DNA from: Prosthecobacter fusiformis
GTDB taxonomy: Bacteria; Verrucomicrobiota; Verrucomicrobiia; Verrucomicrobiales; Verrucomicrobiaceae
Length of the DNA: 64,000 nt
NCBI RefSeq assembly: GCF_004364345.1
Contig: NZ_SOCA01000010.1
Span: 1 to 64,000, forward strand
Direction: 5' to 3'
The position numbers and the translations under genes were made by a program. Position 1 is the first letter of the stretch, and every line of letters starts with the position of its first letter. Positions 823 through 6,484 of the stretch are shown here, piece after piece. The notes under the pieces were generated by a model, which ran no database searches, had not been told where the DNA came from, and was given only the letters and a program-made list of their open reading frames with translations.

Positions 823-1157
823 AAACCAGCTATGCCGTGCAGGGCAGGGGAGTGCAAGTGATGGAAGCCGAACTCTGCCGATTGGCATCCTCACCACCGT
901 CCTGGAAGGACGATGGAAAGTAGCCGGAGGTGGAGGTCGCGTAGCGACCGAGAACCACCGGATGCGAGTCGAACAAATCACCAACCTGCGTCGCGTCCCG
1001 GAGGGACGCCGGAAGCTTCCTCAAACCCCATGCCCAACCCGGCCGACCCATCCTGCTTCAAAAGTAGAGCGACGACTAAACTCCTCCATTGCTTCATCCT
1101 CGACATTCTATCCCCGGCGCGTCACACTTCCAGCGTTCATCCCCGAAAACCCCTTCT
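823..1157. repeat. Intergenic region with nested palindromes
   Basis: This gap between trmD and a divergently transcribed small secreted gene holds intergenic repeat-type palindromes and no convincing gene. At 924-961 an outer stem CCGGAGGTGG / CCACC-GG encloses an inner hairpin GGTCGC-gta-GCGACC. Near 993-1008 GTCCC-gga-GGGAC forms a second hairpin. Such GC-rich nested palindromes are typical of scattered repeats in Verrucomicrobia and Planctomycetes (general knowledge, not searched). Promoters for both neighbours must lie here, but none is clear. Confidence 0.55.
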
Positions 1158-1634
1158 ATGAAACGCTCGATCATATTCGCAACGTTGTCTATTCTGGCGC
1201 TCTTCAGCTTAACCCAAGCCAGCGAATTTTCCTCGGTCCCCGCCACGGTAAACGAGCTAAAAGACGTCATCGATCTAGATGTCAAAAAGTATAAAATCGA
1301 TTTTGATCATACGGGAGAGATTTCTTTGGAGGTGAAAGGGCTTGGCGTATCAGAGACTTATAAACTCAAAGCGCCCTCCAAATCCGCAACTCTGACCTTA
1401 TACTATGAGCGCGGCCCCAAATCTGCAGGCTCCACCATACCGGGCCATGGCACATTGCATTTCTGGATAGGCAATGATCAAGGCTCCACCTCCAGTTATC
1501 TCCCCTTCGAGGTGGCAAAGGCTCGGGTCACGACGACTGGCTTTCAGAACGACATTTTTCAGGTTCTTGCAACGTCTGCAAAAGACCGGCCAGACGATAG
1601 CGGCTATTCCCTCCGCGTGATCAACAAACCGTAA
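1158..1634 (+). CDS. Small secreted protein of unknown function
   Basis: No family recognised. The 158-residue product begins with a clear Sec signal peptide (MKRSIIFATLSILALFSLTQ, cleavage likely after the Ala-Ser at 21-22). The mature part is charged and beta-rich, with segments such as VKKYKIDFDHTGEISLEVKG and a late Trp-containing stretch (GTLHFWIGND). The frame is open from 1089, but the ATG at 1158 is chosen because it starts directly at the signal peptide. It is the first of three plus-strand genes for short exported proteins (1158-2911) spaced by about 55-90 bases. There is no strong ribosome binding site. The product is probably periplasmic. Confidence 0.75.
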   Translation: MKRSIIFATLSILALFSLTQASEFSSVPATVNELKDVIDLDVKKYKIDFDHTGEISLEVKGLGVSETYKLKAPSKSATLTLYYERGPKSAGSTIPGHGTLHFWIGNDQGSTSSYLPFEVAKARVTTTGFQNDIFQVLATSAKDRPDDSGYSLRVINKP

Positions 1635-1689
1635 ATGCCTAACAAGGCATCTTCAACTCCCCCTCTCTTACGCAACCCCTTTTCCCGGC

Positions 1690-2253
1690 ATGCACCTCTC
1701 CAAAATAAGAACTGCTCTTCTTGGTCTTTCTCTCGTGGCCTCTCTATATGCCGGGGAAGTTCCTGCAGACGTGAGAACGACATCTCCAGACGGTGCTTTT
1801 CAGGTGAGCGTAGCCAGAGTGGGCGATACGAACACAACTCGGTTAGAGATAAAGGACAAGGAGGGGAATCTTCTTTTCACCTCCCCACCACAGATTGACG
1901 GAACTGACATTCTTCATTTCTATCCCGATCACCTCCGGTGGAACTCAGACTCAAAGATTCTGGCGATTGCAGCTGGCTTCCCTAAGTTATTCCAGACCTA
2001 CCTCTTTGCTTGGGACGGCAGGAAATTTCAATCCATTGCCATGCCAAAAATAGCCTCAGGAGAAGACAATCCTTGGATTTATCCGGTTGAGTGGAAGGGA
2101 AATCATACTCTGCATCTGACCATCAGTGGTCCACATGCGGGTAAGGCTCATGACCGTGGCTACAACGGAACCGCTGTCGTGCAGGTTGATCTTGAAACGA
2201 AGACTTCACAGAAGATCTCAGAGAAAGTCACGCACGATGGCCCAACCCAATAA
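1690..2253 (+). CDS. Secreted protein of unknown function
   Basis: The 187-residue product has an N-terminal signal peptide (MHLSKIRTALLGLSLVASLYAG). The mature domain opens with TTSPDGAFQVSVARVGDTN and contains HFYPDHLRWNSDSKILAIAAGF. That alternation of a 'SPDG' strand and a 'W..DSK.LAI' strand resembles single blades of beta-propeller or TolB-like proteins, but only two or three blades would fit in this length. The minus-strand gene at 4263 encodes a product of similar size and layout. It lies 55 bases after the previous secreted gene, with ATGCCT-aaca-AGGCAT, a possible weak hairpin, between them. Function unknown. Confidence 0.75.
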   Translation: MHLSKIRTALLGLSLVASLYAGEVPADVRTTSPDGAFQVSVARVGDTNTTRLEIKDKEGNLLFTSPPQIDGTDILHFYPDHLRWNSDSKILAIAAGFPKLFQTYLFAWDGRKFQSIAMPKIASGEDNPWIYPVEWKGNHTLHLTISGPHAGKAHDRGYNGTAVVQVDLETKTSQKISEKVTHDGPTQ

Positions 2254-2344
2254 CACCATCGAATGAGCCAGTGGTGGCAATGGCCGACAACGCCACTAAT
2301 TTGTTTCGTTCGCGCCTCATCATTAACCGCCCCCCCCCAACACA

Positions 2345-2911
2345 ATGCGATACCTCACCCTCTTCATTCTCTTCCTCATGCTGGGCAGTCTTTCTGCGAC
2401 TGAAAAAGTGCCCGCAGGTTTTGTCATGCAGGTCATGGAGCCCACGGGTGGAAAGATCCTTCGCCCGAAGGGTTGGTTCTACAATGAAGGTCATCGTTCA
2501 AACGCCTGGATGTGGACCATTTCCAAGGAAGATACCCACGACGGGAAAGACCCATACGATACAGGAGTCAGGATTCAGGCAGTTGCTGGAGTGCAGGAAA
2601 GAACAGGCAAGTCTCCAGAGGTCTTCCTGAAGGAGTTTATCGCCCAGAAGAGAAAAGCCGCTGACAAAGTTCACAAAAACTGCGACGCGGTTGACCAAGG
2701 ACTGTTTACCCGGACCTGCATTGAAGTCACTGAACGTGAATACCGGATTCTTTATTCCGTCTTCTGGAGCAACGAAATAGATATGATCGTCATCAGCATC
2801 GCCGGAGCCAAAACGACTGACTGGGAAGCGAATTCAAAGTTCTTCGACACGATGAGTGCCTTTGAACTTATCGATATGAAACGTTTTCCCGATGACCCCA
2901 AAAAGAAGTAG
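2345..2911 (+). CDS. Secreted protein of unknown function
   Basis: The 188-residue exported protein starts with a short signal peptide (MRYLTLFILFLMLGSLSA). The mature part includes EPTGGKILRPKGWFYNEGHR and TWTISKEDT-like segments, two cysteines (about C118 and C127) that could form a disulfide, and a final strand with MIVISIAGAKTTDWE. The PEGWFY-like opening is seen in exported lipoproteins of the PsbP/DUF1795 type, but the match is weak and is offered only as a hint. It is third in a co-directional set of small secreted genes. No strong ribosome binding site is visible; a run of nine C precedes the start. Confidence 0.72.
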   Translation: MRYLTLFILFLMLGSLSATEKVPAGFVMQVMEPTGGKILRPKGWFYNEGHRSNAWMWTISKEDTHDGKDPYDTGVRIQAVAGVQERTGKSPEVFLKEFIAQKRKAADKVHKNCDAVDQGLFTRTCIEVTEREYRILYSVFWSNEIDMIVISIAGAKTTDWEANSKFFDTMSAFELIDMKRFPDDPKKK

Positions 2912-3282
2912 GAAAACACGGTGTGAGATCGATAAAATAACGGCAAATTCTACGCATCGCAAAACCAGCCGCAGAGCGGCGACCGTCCATTAGCCCGGCC
3001 TTTCAAGGCCGGTAATCCCGCCCCGTCCGCAACACCTGCCGGACAGTCGCAGAGCGAAGGCCGAACCCTTTCGGGACCCATGAGAGATCAGACAAACCAC
3101 ACATCTGAGCTGGATCCTTTTCAAAGAAAGAATCAGGCAAAAGTCAGCCAGCAGCGAGGCCAAATCGGAAGAGGCCTCAACTGTGTGCCGTTCTCGCCTG
3201 ACATCTTATTTTGAAACGAGAATCTAAGTAAAAACTTCTACGCTTAGATTGAAAAAATAAAGATCGATGCTACAAACGTGCT
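2912..3282. repeat. Intergenic region with hairpin repeats and left inverted repeat
   Basis: No gene is supported here. The first half (about 2965-3085) is GC-rich with stacked palindromes: CCGC-agag-CGG, CCGGCC-tttcaa-GGCCGG near 2996-3013, and GTCCG/CGGAC. These look like scattered intergenic repeats. After about 3180 the composition becomes AT-rich. It contains the left copy of a 20-bp inverted repeat (3194-3214) and a separate perfect 8-bp inverted repeat, AATCTAAG (3221-3228) and CTTAGATT (3243-3250), just upstream of the next gene. The second could be an operator or a transcript hairpin. Confidence 0.55.
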
Positions 3283-3609
3283 ATGGGATTTACTAGACCT
3301 TATAAAAGAACATGTCGTCAATTCGTGGGCGGTAGTTATGCCGAGGGCGGTCGTGCCGAATACATTCAGGATGAGCGTTACGCTGAGGTTCCTGGACACT
3401 ATGTGAGAGCTTTCCTGATTATTTTAAAAGATCTGCAAGAGTTATTTGATTTCATTGAACCTGACGATGAGAATCTTGCATGTTATTCTTACCGGATCCA
3501 TGCCTTACTGCTTCGTACGTGTGTAGAAGTGGAAGCAAATTGCGTGGCAATATTAAAAGAGAATGGATACCCGAAGCCTGAAAAAAAAACTAACGATGGA
3601 AGACTATAG
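3283..3609 (+). CDS. N-terminal part of a split hypothetical protein
   Basis: The 108-residue frame is largely alpha-helical (GHYVRAFLIILKDLQELFDF, then an SYRIHALLLRTCVEVEANC helix). It runs into a nine-A stretch at 3581-3589, after which it ends with an unrelated TNDGRL tail. One base further on, the next frame continues naturally (KKLTMEDYRKINKTH...), so this and the 3563-4051 frame almost certainly derive from one gene of about 253 residues. With eight A's the frames would join as PEKKLTMEDY. Causes could be a sequencing or assembly error, a real frameshift mutation, or transcriptional slippage. No signal peptide. Composition is clearly more AT-rich than the flanks, suggesting acquired DNA. 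Confidence 0.65.
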   Translation: MGFTRPYKRTCRQFVGGSYAEGGRAEYIQDERYAEVPGHYVRAFLIILKDLQELFDFIEPDDENLACYSYRIHALLLRTCVEVEANCVAILKENGYPKPEKKTNDGRL

Positions 3610-4051
3610 GAAAATCAATAAGACCCATCGTCTCTCATCGTATCAGATTAAAGTCCCCCACTGGAGCGGGACGAAGAATATTCGAGCTCCTTTCGAAGCC
3701 TGGGGACAGACACCCCAACAGCGATTGCCATGGTACATTGCTTACAATGTGACAAAGCATGATCGGCAAAAGACTTTTAAACACGCCAATTTTGACCATT
3801 TATTGGATGCCTGCTGCGGGTTATTTGCGCTTTTAAGTTCTCAATTCTATAACAATGATTTTGGACCCGGTTTGGATTTTTATTCTGTTGAGAGACGGGC
3901 CGATGGTATGGAAAGCGGAATAGGAGAATATTTTCGGGTAAAATTTCCCGATGACTGGCCTGTGGACATGCTATACGACTTCGATTATCAAAAATGGCAG
4001 GTATTGAAATCGGAACCGGAACCATTCTTGAAATACGATTACACGAAGTGA
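3563..4051 (+). CDS. C-terminal part of a split hypothetical protein
   Basis: This frame overlaps the end of the previous one and is read +1 relative to it. Its apparent ATG at 3563 is probably not a true start: real homology-like sequence begins around LTMEDYRKINKTHRLSSY, after the poly-A run. The body includes WYIAYNVTKHDRQKTFKHAN and HLLDACCGLFALLSSQFYNND. A helical 'YN..KHDR...F..A' segment of this kind is reminiscent of HEPN-like or abortive-infection proteins, but this is a weak impression and no catalytic motif can be confirmed. With the 3283 frame it would form a soluble cytoplasmic protein of about 253 residues. Confidence 0.6.
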   Translation: MDTRSLKKKLTMEDYRKINKTHRLSSYQIKVPHWSGTKNIRAPFEAWGQTPQQRLPWYIAYNVTKHDRQKTFKHANFDHLLDACCGLFALLSSQFYNNDFGPGLDFYSVERRADGMESGIGEYFRVKFPDDWPVDMLYDFDYQKWQVLKSEPEPFLKYDYTK

Positions 4052-4118
4052 AATTCACTTAGTTGCGGCCCGCTTACTGAAATCCAGATGTTCAATGAAT
4101 TAGTGAACTAACTGGTGC

Positions 4119-4200
4119 TCAAATAAGATGTCAGGCGAATAGTATAGCTCCGCCTCATGTCTGAGGCCCGGCATTAAATGCTCGTCTGGTGAACGGCACC
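4119..4200. repeat. Right inverted repeat and hairpin cluster
   Basis: Besides the right-hand 20-bp repeat (4119-4138), this stretch contains the hairpin GCCTCA-tgtc-TGAGGC (about 4152-4167), the palindrome GCATTTAATGC (reverse strand, about 4171-4181) and GAACGGCAC (4191-4199), which mirrors 3185-3193. The dense symmetry right after the AT-rich module suggests a recombination end or a transcription stop; which is not clear. Confidence 0.4.
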
Positions 4201-4262
4201 CACCTCGTCAAACCTGCCCAGATGCGTGCCGCCAGCCTCTAACTTAATGACCTCATTCGACC

Positions 4263-4901
4263 TTATTTCCAAAACTCCCACCAGCTATTCCGGCTAGGAA
4301 GGATGGGTTCCGGTTTGCCAGGCGAGCCGGGGTCATCAATGGACACGGTTTGCGTTTCCAGATGAAGAATGAAACTGGGATGTTTGAATGCGGGGTAGAA
4401 AGGGTTAATGGCTGCGCTGATGTGTACGCGGCGTTGTTCCGAATCAAACCAGGCTTCTCCCCGCCACTGCACGCTACTGGTTGATCTGGGAAAGGTATCA
4501 ATCCTGGTTTGAGGCAGAAAATCTGCCAAATCCAGATGTCTGGCGGTCCCTGCTTTAAGGTCATGGATGACGATGGTGTTTCTGTCACCACGCCCGCCGT
4601 GCCACTCGGCGAAAGTGATCACACACCTTCCATCATCAGGGATCATCACATCCCCTGGAGCTATTCTGTTGGGCAGCAATTTTTCAAACTTCTTCTCATA
4701 TTCGGAGGTTTTTTCATTGTAGAAATAGACCAGCGCCCTGCACCTTGCTGGAACTTGGGGATCCCCCATTCCAGCAGGCTCCACACGCACAATCGCTGTC
4801 CCTGAAGGAGATGCATAAGTTTTTGATCGTGGCGGAGCATAAGAGTCGGCCAGCAGAGTGCCCGCTGCTCCCAGCACGGACACAATAAGGAGGATTTTCA
4901 T
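4263..4901 (-). CDS. Secreted protein of unknown function
   Basis: The product is 212 residues from the ATG at 4901, which starts directly at a signal peptide (MKILLIVSVLGAAGTLLADS). The open frame extends to 4985, but the extra 28 residues would bury the signal. The mature part opens with KTYASPSGTAIVRVEP, and later has CVITFAEWHGGRGDRNTIVIHDL and SVQWRGEAWFDSEQRRVHIS. Alternating 'SP.G' and 'D' strands suggest a propeller-like or beta-sandwich periplasmic protein. Its general plan resembles the 1690 gene. It points towards the AT-rich module, so it may mark the edge of that insertion. Function unknown. Confidence 0.72.
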   Translation of the reverse strand: MKILLIVSVLGAAGTLLADSYAPPRSKTYASPSGTAIVRVEPAGMGDPQVPARCRALVYFYNEKTSEYEKKFEKLLPNRIAPGDVMIPDDGRCVITFAEWHGGRGDRNTIVIHDLKAGTARHLDLADFLPQTRIDTFPRSTSSVQWRGEAWFDSEQRRVHISAAINPFYPAFKHPSFILHLETQTVSIDDPGSPGKPEPILPSRNSWWEFWK

Positions 4902-5586
4902 ACCTCTATCCAAAATCATTCGCAGCACCATTGCAATCCGCCAATGAACCGTTACCTCCCAAAAAAATTCTCCTGCCATCGCCATTTGCCCGGTGATCCC
5001 AGCGCGTGGATCAAAACCTGCTCATTCTAAATTCTTCGGGGCCTCAAACAAAAGTTTTGCTTCCCCTCGGTCATGAGTTGCCCCGACTCCAAGAATCACC
5101 TGGATTTTGCCATATCCTATAATAGTGTTTACCACTATCAGAACAAGCCCTTCCTTTCGTGTTATACACGAGGCTTCAAAGCCTTCCGCCATCCTATGGA
5201 TTCTATGAATAAACAACCCGTCCCATCCCCAGGATTTCCCCATGGGGAAATCGATCCCCACCAAATCCCCATCCACAATCGACTGAAAATGAACGGTAAA
5301 CACCCTAAAATCCCCAAATGGGGAAAAATTGAATTTCATCCCCATGCCCTTTGAGGAGGTTTCTTTTCAATATCGAATGCCTTATCCATAATAACCATGA
5401 TTTACCGATCAAGACCTCTTCGTGGAGCGCGCGCGTCTCGCGTGCAGACAGTCGCGTCCCGCGGCTGTCCGTTCTTGAAGGTCGCTCCATCTATGCAAAG
5501 CCGCCGACCGCTCATGCATCCTGGATGGGTTTTACCCGAGGACATGGAAACCGGCAGGCGAGACGCCGCGCACCCAATTCCTCATT
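4902..5586. repeat. Gene-poor stretch with palindromes and a repeat element
   Basis: I see no convincing gene. ORFs of about 100 codons on both strands (around 5022-5354) are mirror images of each other and lack start signals. The stretch holds an 18-bp perfect palindrome, ATTTCCCCATGGGGAAAT, at 5234-5251, a related TCCCC-aaa-TGGGGA at 5311-5323, and further CCCCA motifs between. From about 5423 to 5575 lies a GC-rich element whose ends are imperfect inverted repeats (GCGCGCGTCTCGC near 5429-5441 and GCGAGACGCCGCGC at 5558-5571). It resembles scattered verrucomicrobial intergenic repeats. Confidence 0.55.
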
Positions 5587-6036
5587 TTAAATAGCTGCCT
5601 CCAAATCCACCTCATGATACTCCAGCGCCCATTCCTTCATGTACCGCACCCGGCTGGGAATGAAGCGGTAGATGATCAACTCCGGGTTGTTGATGTCCCG
5701 CAGATACGCGCGGAGCAGGGCATTTCCATTCCAGATCTCCTCAATCAACCCCCGGTCCGTGAGGATCTCGGCGCTGGCGGTGATGCGGACCTGGTTGTGA
5801 TCGTCGTCCGTGTAGCACAGCTCTGCATTCGGGTTCGCCGCCAGTTCAGCCGTCTTGCCATACCGGCGCAGGTTGGCCACATAAACGACAAAACCGTCCG
5901 TTTTCACCGGCGATACCGGCCTCACCCGCGGCTGGTCACCGTCCATCGTCGCCAGCACAGGGAACTTGGCCGCTTTCATCGTCACCAGCGCCAGGGCAGG
6001 CAGTTCAGCAGGATCAATGGGGGCAGGCTGGGGCAT
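5587..6036 (-). CDS. Pyridoxamine 5'-phosphate oxidase-family (FMN-binding split-barrel) protein
   Basis: The 149-residue product has the compact split beta-barrel of the PPOX/general stress protein 26 group. It starts with a helix, then FPVLATMDGDQPRVRPVSPV, where 'latvd..G.PrvRpv' is the FMN-phosphate-contacting strand pair. It continues with GFVVYVANLRRYGKTAELAANPNAELCYTD, the usual 'k...l..np.v.l.f.d' block, and ends with RFIPSRVRYMKEWAL. Members bind FMN or F420-like flavins and reduce small molecules or detoxify oxidants; the true PNPOx substrate residues are not evident. No signal peptide, so cytoplasmic. It is a monocistronic minus-strand gene beside repeat-rich DNA. Confidence 0.85.
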   Translation of the reverse strand: MPQPAPIDPAELPALALVTMKAAKFPVLATMDGDQPRVRPVSPVKTDGFVVYVANLRRYGKTAELAANPNAELCYTDDDHNQVRITASAEILTDRGLIEEIWNGNALLRAYLRDINNPELIIYRFIPSRVRYMKEWALEYHEVDLEAAI

Positions 6037-6484
6037 GGGAAGAAAGAATGAGTCCGGGGAAACAAGGCACTGTTTTTTAACAGGATTTACAGGATGGCAG
6101 GATTAACAAAATTCAGAAAGGGGACAACTTAGGAAACGGCGCGCTGAAAGAGGATTGGCAAAAAGATGTTGGGTAAAAGATTTTGAATCCATGGAATGAA
6201 TTGGATGAAGACCGCTTTGACCAGCTCTGCTCTTCCATCTTTAACCCAACATCTTTTTGCCAAAACGGTTTGGAAATCATAAACCCCCTCATCCCGCCAC
6301 ACCCCGAACGCCCTTGTCAAGCTTGAGGCACCAACAAAAGTTTCGCCGGAAACGTCCTCCAGGGTTGCCCCGCCTCCCCCCTTTCGTTAACTCACTTCTC
6401 AGTCACTGCCAGCCTTCCTCTTGACCTCTGCCTTGACCTTTGACTCTCTCCTTCTGACCCTTTCCCTCCGATCCTCTTCCAACC
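6037..6484. repeat. Intergenic region with long inverted repeat before tex
   Basis: No gene is supported. It contains a short AGGATT-type direct repeat (about 6078-6108: ACAGGATTT, ACAGGATGG, CAGGATTA) of a kind seen widely in bacterial intergenic DNA. It also holds the 26-bp inverted repeat described separately. The last 100 bases before tex are pyrimidine-rich (CCTTTGACTCTCTCC and similar), with no clear promoter. Confidence 0.5.
6155..6263. repeat. 109-bp element with 26-bp terminal inverted repeats
   Basis: The left arm at 6155-6180 (beginning TTGGCAAAAAGATGTTGGGT) and the right arm at 6238-6263 (ending AACATCTTTTTGCCAA) are reverse complements over 26 bases with a single mismatch. They enclose 57 bases that include a WCATGGAATGAATTGGATGA-type stretch. 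No coding potential is evident. Transcribed, it would make a very stable stem. It looks like a MITE or other small palindromic repeat rather than a terminator, because neither arm is followed by a U tract and no transcript clearly ends here. Confidence 0.7.

Follow-up and report, generated by a model that had tools for sequence, protein, structure and literature searches.

The locus examined here raises the question of whether an AT-rich gene enclosed by short inverted repeats is a small mobile unit in its own right, or a stretch that lies between repeats of another origin. It is located in the window, the 64,000-nucleotide stretch of DNA that was analysed as a whole (bases 1–64000 of contig 10; the genome comprises 5.83 Mb in 32 contigs). 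The original prediction had described an AT-rich module bounded by near-identical inverted repeats just outside a split gene, and had seen in it a unit that moves or is exchanged without a transposase of its own. As set out below, the most probable reading of the 900-bp stretch is that of a broken, foreign gene lying between two mobile repeat ends.

The inverted repeats and the gene between them

The inverted repeats are indeed present: the two arms (3194–3211 and 4121–4138; Table 1) are perfectly complementary over 18 of 18 nucleotides and are separated by 909 nt, and one extra T in the left arm ends the complementarity beyond these 18 nt. When the 64 kb were searched with the arm 18-mer at up to three mismatches, the window held no sites besides the two arms, and two such matches occurred in none of 100 shuffles. 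An outer inverted pair that had been noticed beyond the arms (3182–3193 and 4191–4202; 92% over 12 nt) exists as well, but its right arm is probably a chance match, since the left outer arm belongs to an IS4-type TIR (see below) whereas the right one scores −8.4 bits with the TIR matrix (rank 234). Similarly, the two hairpins reported at the right end exist but are weak: the segment 4121–4181 folds with −7.5 kcal/mol (z −1.57), a value equalled by 15 of 200 shuffles. The direct-repeat families returned by a repeat search of 2800–4600 sit elsewhere than beside the arms.

The stretch between the arms has a GC content of 41.8%, compared with 55.6% for the window, and is matched in this respect by one of 1,262 windows of 909 bp, which bears out the AT-rich character first noted. 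The two overlapping ORFs, which lie in different frames, correspond to the two halves of a single protein, which three distant genomes encode in one intact ORF of 247–258 aa (258 aa in a Chloroflexi MAG, with 62% identity over the second half, 248 aa in a Rhodobiaceae MAG and 247 aa in a Rhodospira MAG). The window gene is therefore broken in frame, in agreement with the split that had been described. Its second half has matches in four of the 288 genomes of a phylum sample, its own included, the other three being weak (E from 4e-4 to 3e-8); in this sample, which holds part of the genus, no other genome of the genus carries the gene. Relatives with less than 60% identity were found in 19 plasmid records, 14 of which are conjugative, with 80% query coverage in none of them.

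As regards its identity, the gene product matched no Pfam or NCBIfam family and no PDB sequence, a PADLOC search with four proteins gave no match, and a known defence gene was discarded on the basis of the PADLOC, Pfam and PDB results. Its predicted structure (mean pLDDT 42.1) was too poor for use. No Rhs-type neighbours were noticed by eye among the ORFs around the three intact relatives, and for this reason an Rhs immunity gene was also set aside. No transposase is recognisable among the ORFs of the 900-bp unit, as the original prediction had it. The gene is accessory and foreign-looking.

Table 1. Coordinates, in window positions, of the two arms, the gene between them and the adjoining features.
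Feature	Position	Strand	Remark
Decayed 5′ (N-terminal) fragment of an IS4-family transposase gene, left element body	3096..3173	−	Alignment and antisense pieces
Degenerate IS4-family TIR	3174..3193	+	3176–3193 scores 16.1 bits, top site of the 64 kb; next 7.9
Left arm, repeat-family end: 11-bp target-like TCGCCTGACAT and T-rich tail	3194..3211	+	12.7 bits with the relatives-only matrix; next unrelated site 3.9
First part of the frame-broken AT-rich gene	3283..3609	+	N-terminal half of the intact relatives L093–L095
Second part of the broken gene, in a different frame	3563..4051	+	Matches PHROG 19461 (function unknown)
Right arm, repeat-family end	4121..4143	−	18 nt identical to the left arm; 12.7 bits
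Outer right arm noted in the original prediction	4191..4202	−	No match to the IS4 TIR matrix (−8.4 bits)

The arms are divergent members of a dispersed repeat family

Both arms are divergent members of a family of dispersed repeats, the unit of which consists of an 11-bp palindrome, ATGCCTGGCAT, followed by a T-rich tail and accompanied by a subtype-specific lead. The sequence after the palindrome is T-rich but variable (CTTTTT, TATTTT or TTAGTT), and the left arm matches the palindrome at eight of 11 positions. The family sequence TGCCTGGCATCTTTTT is found at 34 places of this genome with up to two mismatches and at 17 with up to one, compared with none for the reversed control. It is also present with up to one mismatch in 32 of 56 genomes, this one included, the reversed control giving two matches in all. 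The arms themselves are three mismatches away from TGCCTGGCATCTTTTT and are for this reason absent from the 34 places. Position matrices from which the window copies had been excluded nevertheless rank both arms as the top two sites of the 64 kb, whether they are derived from the copies of this genome (21.7 and 21.3 bits; next site 12.8) or from those of the relatives only (12.7 bits for each arm; next site 3.9). A sequence model that likewise excluded the window copies gave 23 places of this genome at E ≤ 1, the arms not among them, with 150 of 4,669 first-look candidates scored.

Orienting 117 copies as GCCTGGCATCTTTTT revealed the polarity of the family. On the 5′ side, homology among them varies widely in length and can reach about 1,200 nt, and it seldom crosses the T-rich tail; the exceptions listed come from one locus with tandem copies and from three pairs in paralogous stretches. 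In the window, the tails of both arms face the gene and the bodies lie outside, so that the gene is situated between two ends and not within one element. In a hairpin test, a copy of the type found in genome G013 reached −9 kcal/mol (z −6.2), while the types of this genome had z values of about 0 and the left arm of the window −0.6.

Two further arrangements were observed in the family. Tandem iterations of the repeat tail (TGGCATCTTTTT or similar) occur behind the element end at loci L069, L092, L112, L065, L079 and L187, and resemble slippage or repeated insertion. MITE-like elements of 314–318 bp, with one terminal repeat at both ends, are present in genomes G001 and G012 (L102 3331–3644 and 5291–5605; L104 1116–1433), and no clear target duplication was found for them.

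A RAYT-like transposase gene lies beside the palindrome

Downstream of the palindrome lies a gene for a Y1 (HUH) transposase. Its product matches PF01797 (Y1_Tnp) with 39.5 bits, above the cut-off of 23, and REP_Tyr_transpos (NF047646) with 59.3 bits, below the cut-off of 80 for the RAYT family; we refer to it as RAYT-like. At E ≤ 1e-60, the gene is present in 25 of 39 genomes of the genus, this one included, and a single genome can hold as many as 13 matches. This genome has only one copy at E ≤ 1e-60, and it is frameshifted. Genomes G013, G012, G028, G030 and G024 hold 8 to 13 matches each.

The palindrome 11-mer is located upstream of 38 of the 39 distinct RAYT-like copies with up to one mismatch. 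With a 15-mer, the repeat lies 187–206 nt upstream in 21 of the 23 loci that have a conserved core (30 scanned), one of them weak. On the other side of the gene, within 200 nt behind the stop codon, the palindrome was found in one of 37 copies at up to one mismatch and in five of 37 at up to two. Most copies diverge at once behind the stop codon, and about 20 nt are common to some of the G013 copies. GTAG or GTGG occurs in two of 136 family sites, over the 29 positions looked at. The RAYT-like Y1 transposase is probably the source of the repeat family.

A decayed IS4-family element ends at the left arm

A second class of body carries an IS4-family DDE transposase gene, found in copies from two relatives that encode proteins of 493 and 504 aa. 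These match NF033592 with 208.5 and 214.6 bits (cut-off 115), and PF01609 as well. The TIR of this element has GTGCCATTC at its end and is as a rule followed by 11 bases close to ATGCC[T/A]GGCAT. At least eight of 11 palindrome positions are matched beside 31 of 41 TIR-like places, including that of the window (0.38% at random), a share that is biased upward because many of the loci were fetched for holding the repeat. Seven elements with both ends were found in the relatives, three of about 1.62 kb, one of 0.89 kb and three of about 280 bp, and their 11-bp flanks agree at 11, 11, 11, 10, 9, 8 and 2 positions. The one with two agreeing positions (1.62 kb, in G009) lies outside the palindrome. 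As the flanks are mostly alike on both sides, the palindrome is likely to be the target of the IS4-family element; among the relatives, the two-ended elements have TIRs with a target duplication, and the window keeps one end. The elements of about 280 bp have IS4-type TIRs at both ends (L103 647–924, L196 2128–2407 and L197 209–487; two with identical 11-bp flanks) and are likely to be non-autonomous derivatives.

That end adjoins the left arm. When the TIR matrix, derived from 38 copies external to the window, is run over the 64 kb, the top site lies immediately before the arm (Table 1). Moreover, 3110–3171 aligns with the interior of an IS4-type element at C2:771.8 kb of this genome with a score of 32, compared with 20 for the best of 300 shuffles. 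Two antisense pieces, LPDSFFEKDP (approximately 3096–3140, E 0.001) and ASSDLASLLADF (3140–3175, E 0.076), both E-values referring to a database of 312 nt, match adjoining N-terminal residues of the transposase. The best TIR match and these transposase scraps therefore place the end of a decayed IS4-family element exactly at the start of the left arm. Short elements of about 88 bp on the left and 62 bp on the right were considered and rejected: the left one is the IS4 remnant, and the right one has no support past 22 nt. IS4 ends on both sides were rejected too, the right arm having failed the TIR matrix.

Shared variants, repeat arrays and intervals

The right arm resembles another repeat of this genome, at C2:484635, with 21 of 22 nt identical over 4122–4143. 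Past these 22 nt, its body scores 14 against the flank of that copy, no better than shuffles (mean 13.5, maximum 19). In the own-genome search with the arm 18-mer at three mismatches, the nearest copy is no closer than two mismatches. The two arms also share the variants GAC and TTAT. At the 134 other sites of a list limited to two mismatches, which these two variants use up, GAC is found once, TTAT eight times and both together never. Their joint presence can be due to common descent, to gene conversion across the pair, or can be the mark of a paired unit, and its absence from the 134 other sites keeps the latter reading alive.

The C2:484635 copy is part of an array of mostly alternating repeat ends (G000:C2:482802–486371; L018 12802–16371), which contains two 157-aa genes, the remnant of an IS4 element and a segment that, by reading, looks like the end of an Rhs core. 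The 157-aa genes are identical at 457 of 471 nt. On one side each, their similarity stops at a family repeat, copy 1 beginning directly behind CTTTTT and copy 2 ending at the start of AAAGCACTG. By reading, the stretch resembling an Rhs core end starts directly behind a repeat at C2:485.8 kb. More generally, family repeats occur among Rhs-like and SUKH-type genes in this genome and its relatives. At L096 (G016:C2:298.9–303.2 kb), repeated gene pairs are split by repeats pointing the same way, as if amplified by recombination between them; one member of the pair is SUKH-like (25.1 bits, just below the Pfam cut-off of 25.4).

Coordinates in this genome give 16 neighbouring repeat pairs within 1.5 kb, of which six are convergent, four divergent and six same-way; an excess of convergent pairs was thus rejected. 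All six convergent intervals, that of the window included, have a GC content of 38–43%, compared with 40–52% for the four divergent ones, 50–58% for four of the six same-way ones and about 56% in two stretches of the genome nearby. This low GC content fits the movement of the gene as a cassette, and a preference for T-rich DNA would also draw repeat ends to AT-rich foreign DNA without any cassette.

A search of this genome with 3150–4250 returned the segment itself and one place matching the left end only, that is, no second copy of the 900-bp unit. In a DNA search of 34 genomes, this one included, with 1100–6100, no empty site came to light, since nothing in the 33 relatives corresponded to the DNA immediately flanking the unit; the region of about 5600–6046 was matched in most genomes with a match, 1750–2311 in one (70%), and the remainder were short dispersed repeats. 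The original prediction had turned on other copies of the unit and on whether the repeat is conserved only with this gene: the unit has no other copy in this genome, but the repeat itself occurs in many copies beside other genes.

Two mobile repeat ends or one unit?

Membership of the family, its links to a RAYT-like transposase and to IS4-family elements, and the foreign, broken gene enclosed lead us to regard the arms as termini, pointing at a foreign gene, of mobile repeats of a known kind. They are probably two convergent ends of the dispersed family, the 900 bp being the stretch between them and not a transposon that carries terminal repeats of its own. The small movable unit that had been proposed thus survives in part: the repeats do belong to mobile DNA, but a single TIR-bounded mover of 900 bp is unsupported, the bodies facing away from the gene, the left side being the edge of an IS4 remnant, a second copy being absent from this genome, and the gene being found in no other genome of that part of the genus which the phylum sample covers. 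Several findings count against two independent ends. The jointly held GAC and TTAT are more than independent ends suggest, the arms are three mismatches away from TGCCTGGCATCTTTTT and went unlisted by the family model (150 of 4,669 candidates scored), the convergent intervals are more AT-rich than the others, the body of the right arm has no match above shuffles past 22 nt, and the hairpins of the copies in this genome seem weak.

Some of these findings speak for a cassette mobilized in trans, in which the inverted ends and the gene would be one unit, comparable to a long REPIN, moved or copied by a RAYT-like Y1 transposase encoded elsewhere, the IS4 element having arrived later on the left. 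This we consider possible though improbable. It would account for the variant pair seen jointly at none of the 134 other sites, for the six convergent intervals lying below most others in GC, for the two 157-aa genes on C2, each of which stops resembling the other at a family repeat on one side, and for the stretch (by reading, an Rhs core end) that starts right behind a repeat. Against it, this genome has no second copy of the unit, the immediate flanks are unmatched in the 33 relatives, convergent pairs are not clearly in excess, and the sole RAYT-like copy of this genome at E ≤ 1e-60 is frame-broken. A still broader idea, which we put forward with little confidence, is that convergent ends of the multicopy RAYT-like transposase define single-gene cassettes in general: pairs of inverted repeats would capture AT-rich accessory genes, Rhs-like and immunity-type ones among them, which would then be mobilized or swapped in trans, and IS4-family elements would insert into these palindromes as well.

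The clear IS4 TIR and transposase scrap at the left inner end, together with a right outer arm that begins with the same nine bases, could also be taken as what is left of a composite transposon, in which two IS4-family copies flanked and moved the gene and only their inner ends remain; this is unlikely, as the right outer arm fails the TIR matrix and lies 52 bp past the right repeat instead of adjoining it. Retention of the repeats as transcription signals of the gene is very unlikely: the arms do lie directly outside the coding region, but no promoter- or terminator-like site is found at them in 2900–4400, where the counts are as in shuffles (1 versus 2.2 and 2 versus 1.6), the family adjoins other genes too and the gene is broken. 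Two short matches could also coincide by chance, inverted pairs of small size being frequent within 1.8 kb, but the shuffles never reproduced this one and the arms belong to a repeat family, which leaves such an explanation scarcely credible. Integron cassettes were dismissed as well, on the weak grounds that no clear attC pattern is seen by reading at the arms.

If the arms are indeed two convergent ends, a foreign AT-rich gene would have entered this site, and repeat ends would have come to flank it on both sides, perhaps through a preference for T-rich DNA. An IS4-family element would then have struck the left end and decayed to a TIR and a scrap of transposase; here the remnant is observed and its place in the order is what we infer. 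The gene would also have lost its frame, the break itself being seen in the two ORFs.

Comparison with known systems

Accessory genes between or beside repeated sequences are found in the minimal mobile elements and Correia elements of Neisseria, and the window locus is like them in gene placement only, with an accessory gene between repeats. Arrays of Rhs tips and immunity genes are also a known system; the repeats of this genome and of its relatives lie among Rhs-like and SUKH-type genes in a similar way, whereas inspection by eye of the ORFs around the window gene's relatives showed none of Rhs type.

RAYTs are described as single copies per genome flanked by two inverted REPs (REPtrons; PMC2817692, PMC3116915). 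The present family is like these REP/RAYT systems in that a short dispersed palindromic repeat also stands beside a RAYT-type Y1 transposase (PMC2817692, PMC3116915). Unlike them, it shows no GTAG/GTGG head over the 29 positions examined, its palindrome is found on one side of the gene only, its transposase reaches 13 copies per genome, and the repeat types of this genome seem barely to form hairpins. TIRtrons and TIRYTs are described as RAYT-like genes flanked by non-GTAG repeats that are themselves moderately abundant dispersed families; the combination of a RAYT-like gene and a non-GTAG repeat from a dispersed family is similar here (PMC3733652), whereas the palindrome stands behind the stop codon in only one of 37 copies. 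Finally, ISRm22, of the IS4 family, is reported from palindromic REPs (nine copies in the text and 10 of 10 in a table; PMC1525189). It thus offers a parallel for an IS4-family element in palindromic repeats (PMC1525189), in another genus and with another palindrome, and in the present family one of the seven two-ended elements lies outside the palindrome. Compared with the described RAYT/REP systems, the family is therefore a known kind of mobile repeat that departs from them in transposase copy number, one-sidedness and the missing GTAG head.

The suggestive appearance of a mini-transposon is thus explained by the ends of mobile repeats. At the same time, it exposes a repeat system of the genus, in which a RAYT-like transposase occurs in several copies, next to a palindrome that lies on one side only and is occupied by an IS4-family element as well. 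Copies with one fixed end and a variably lost other end bear on one-ended movement, and AT-rich accessory genes between convergent ends bear on the exchange of cassettes.

Other repeats were seen in the window. Another dispersed repeat, at 5225–5349, has seven further copies in this genome with 76–78% identity, two short repeats at 2967–3015 and 5424–5486 have copies in several relatives, and positions 1–150, at the start of the contig, read as a short tandem repeat of the CTCCAG type.
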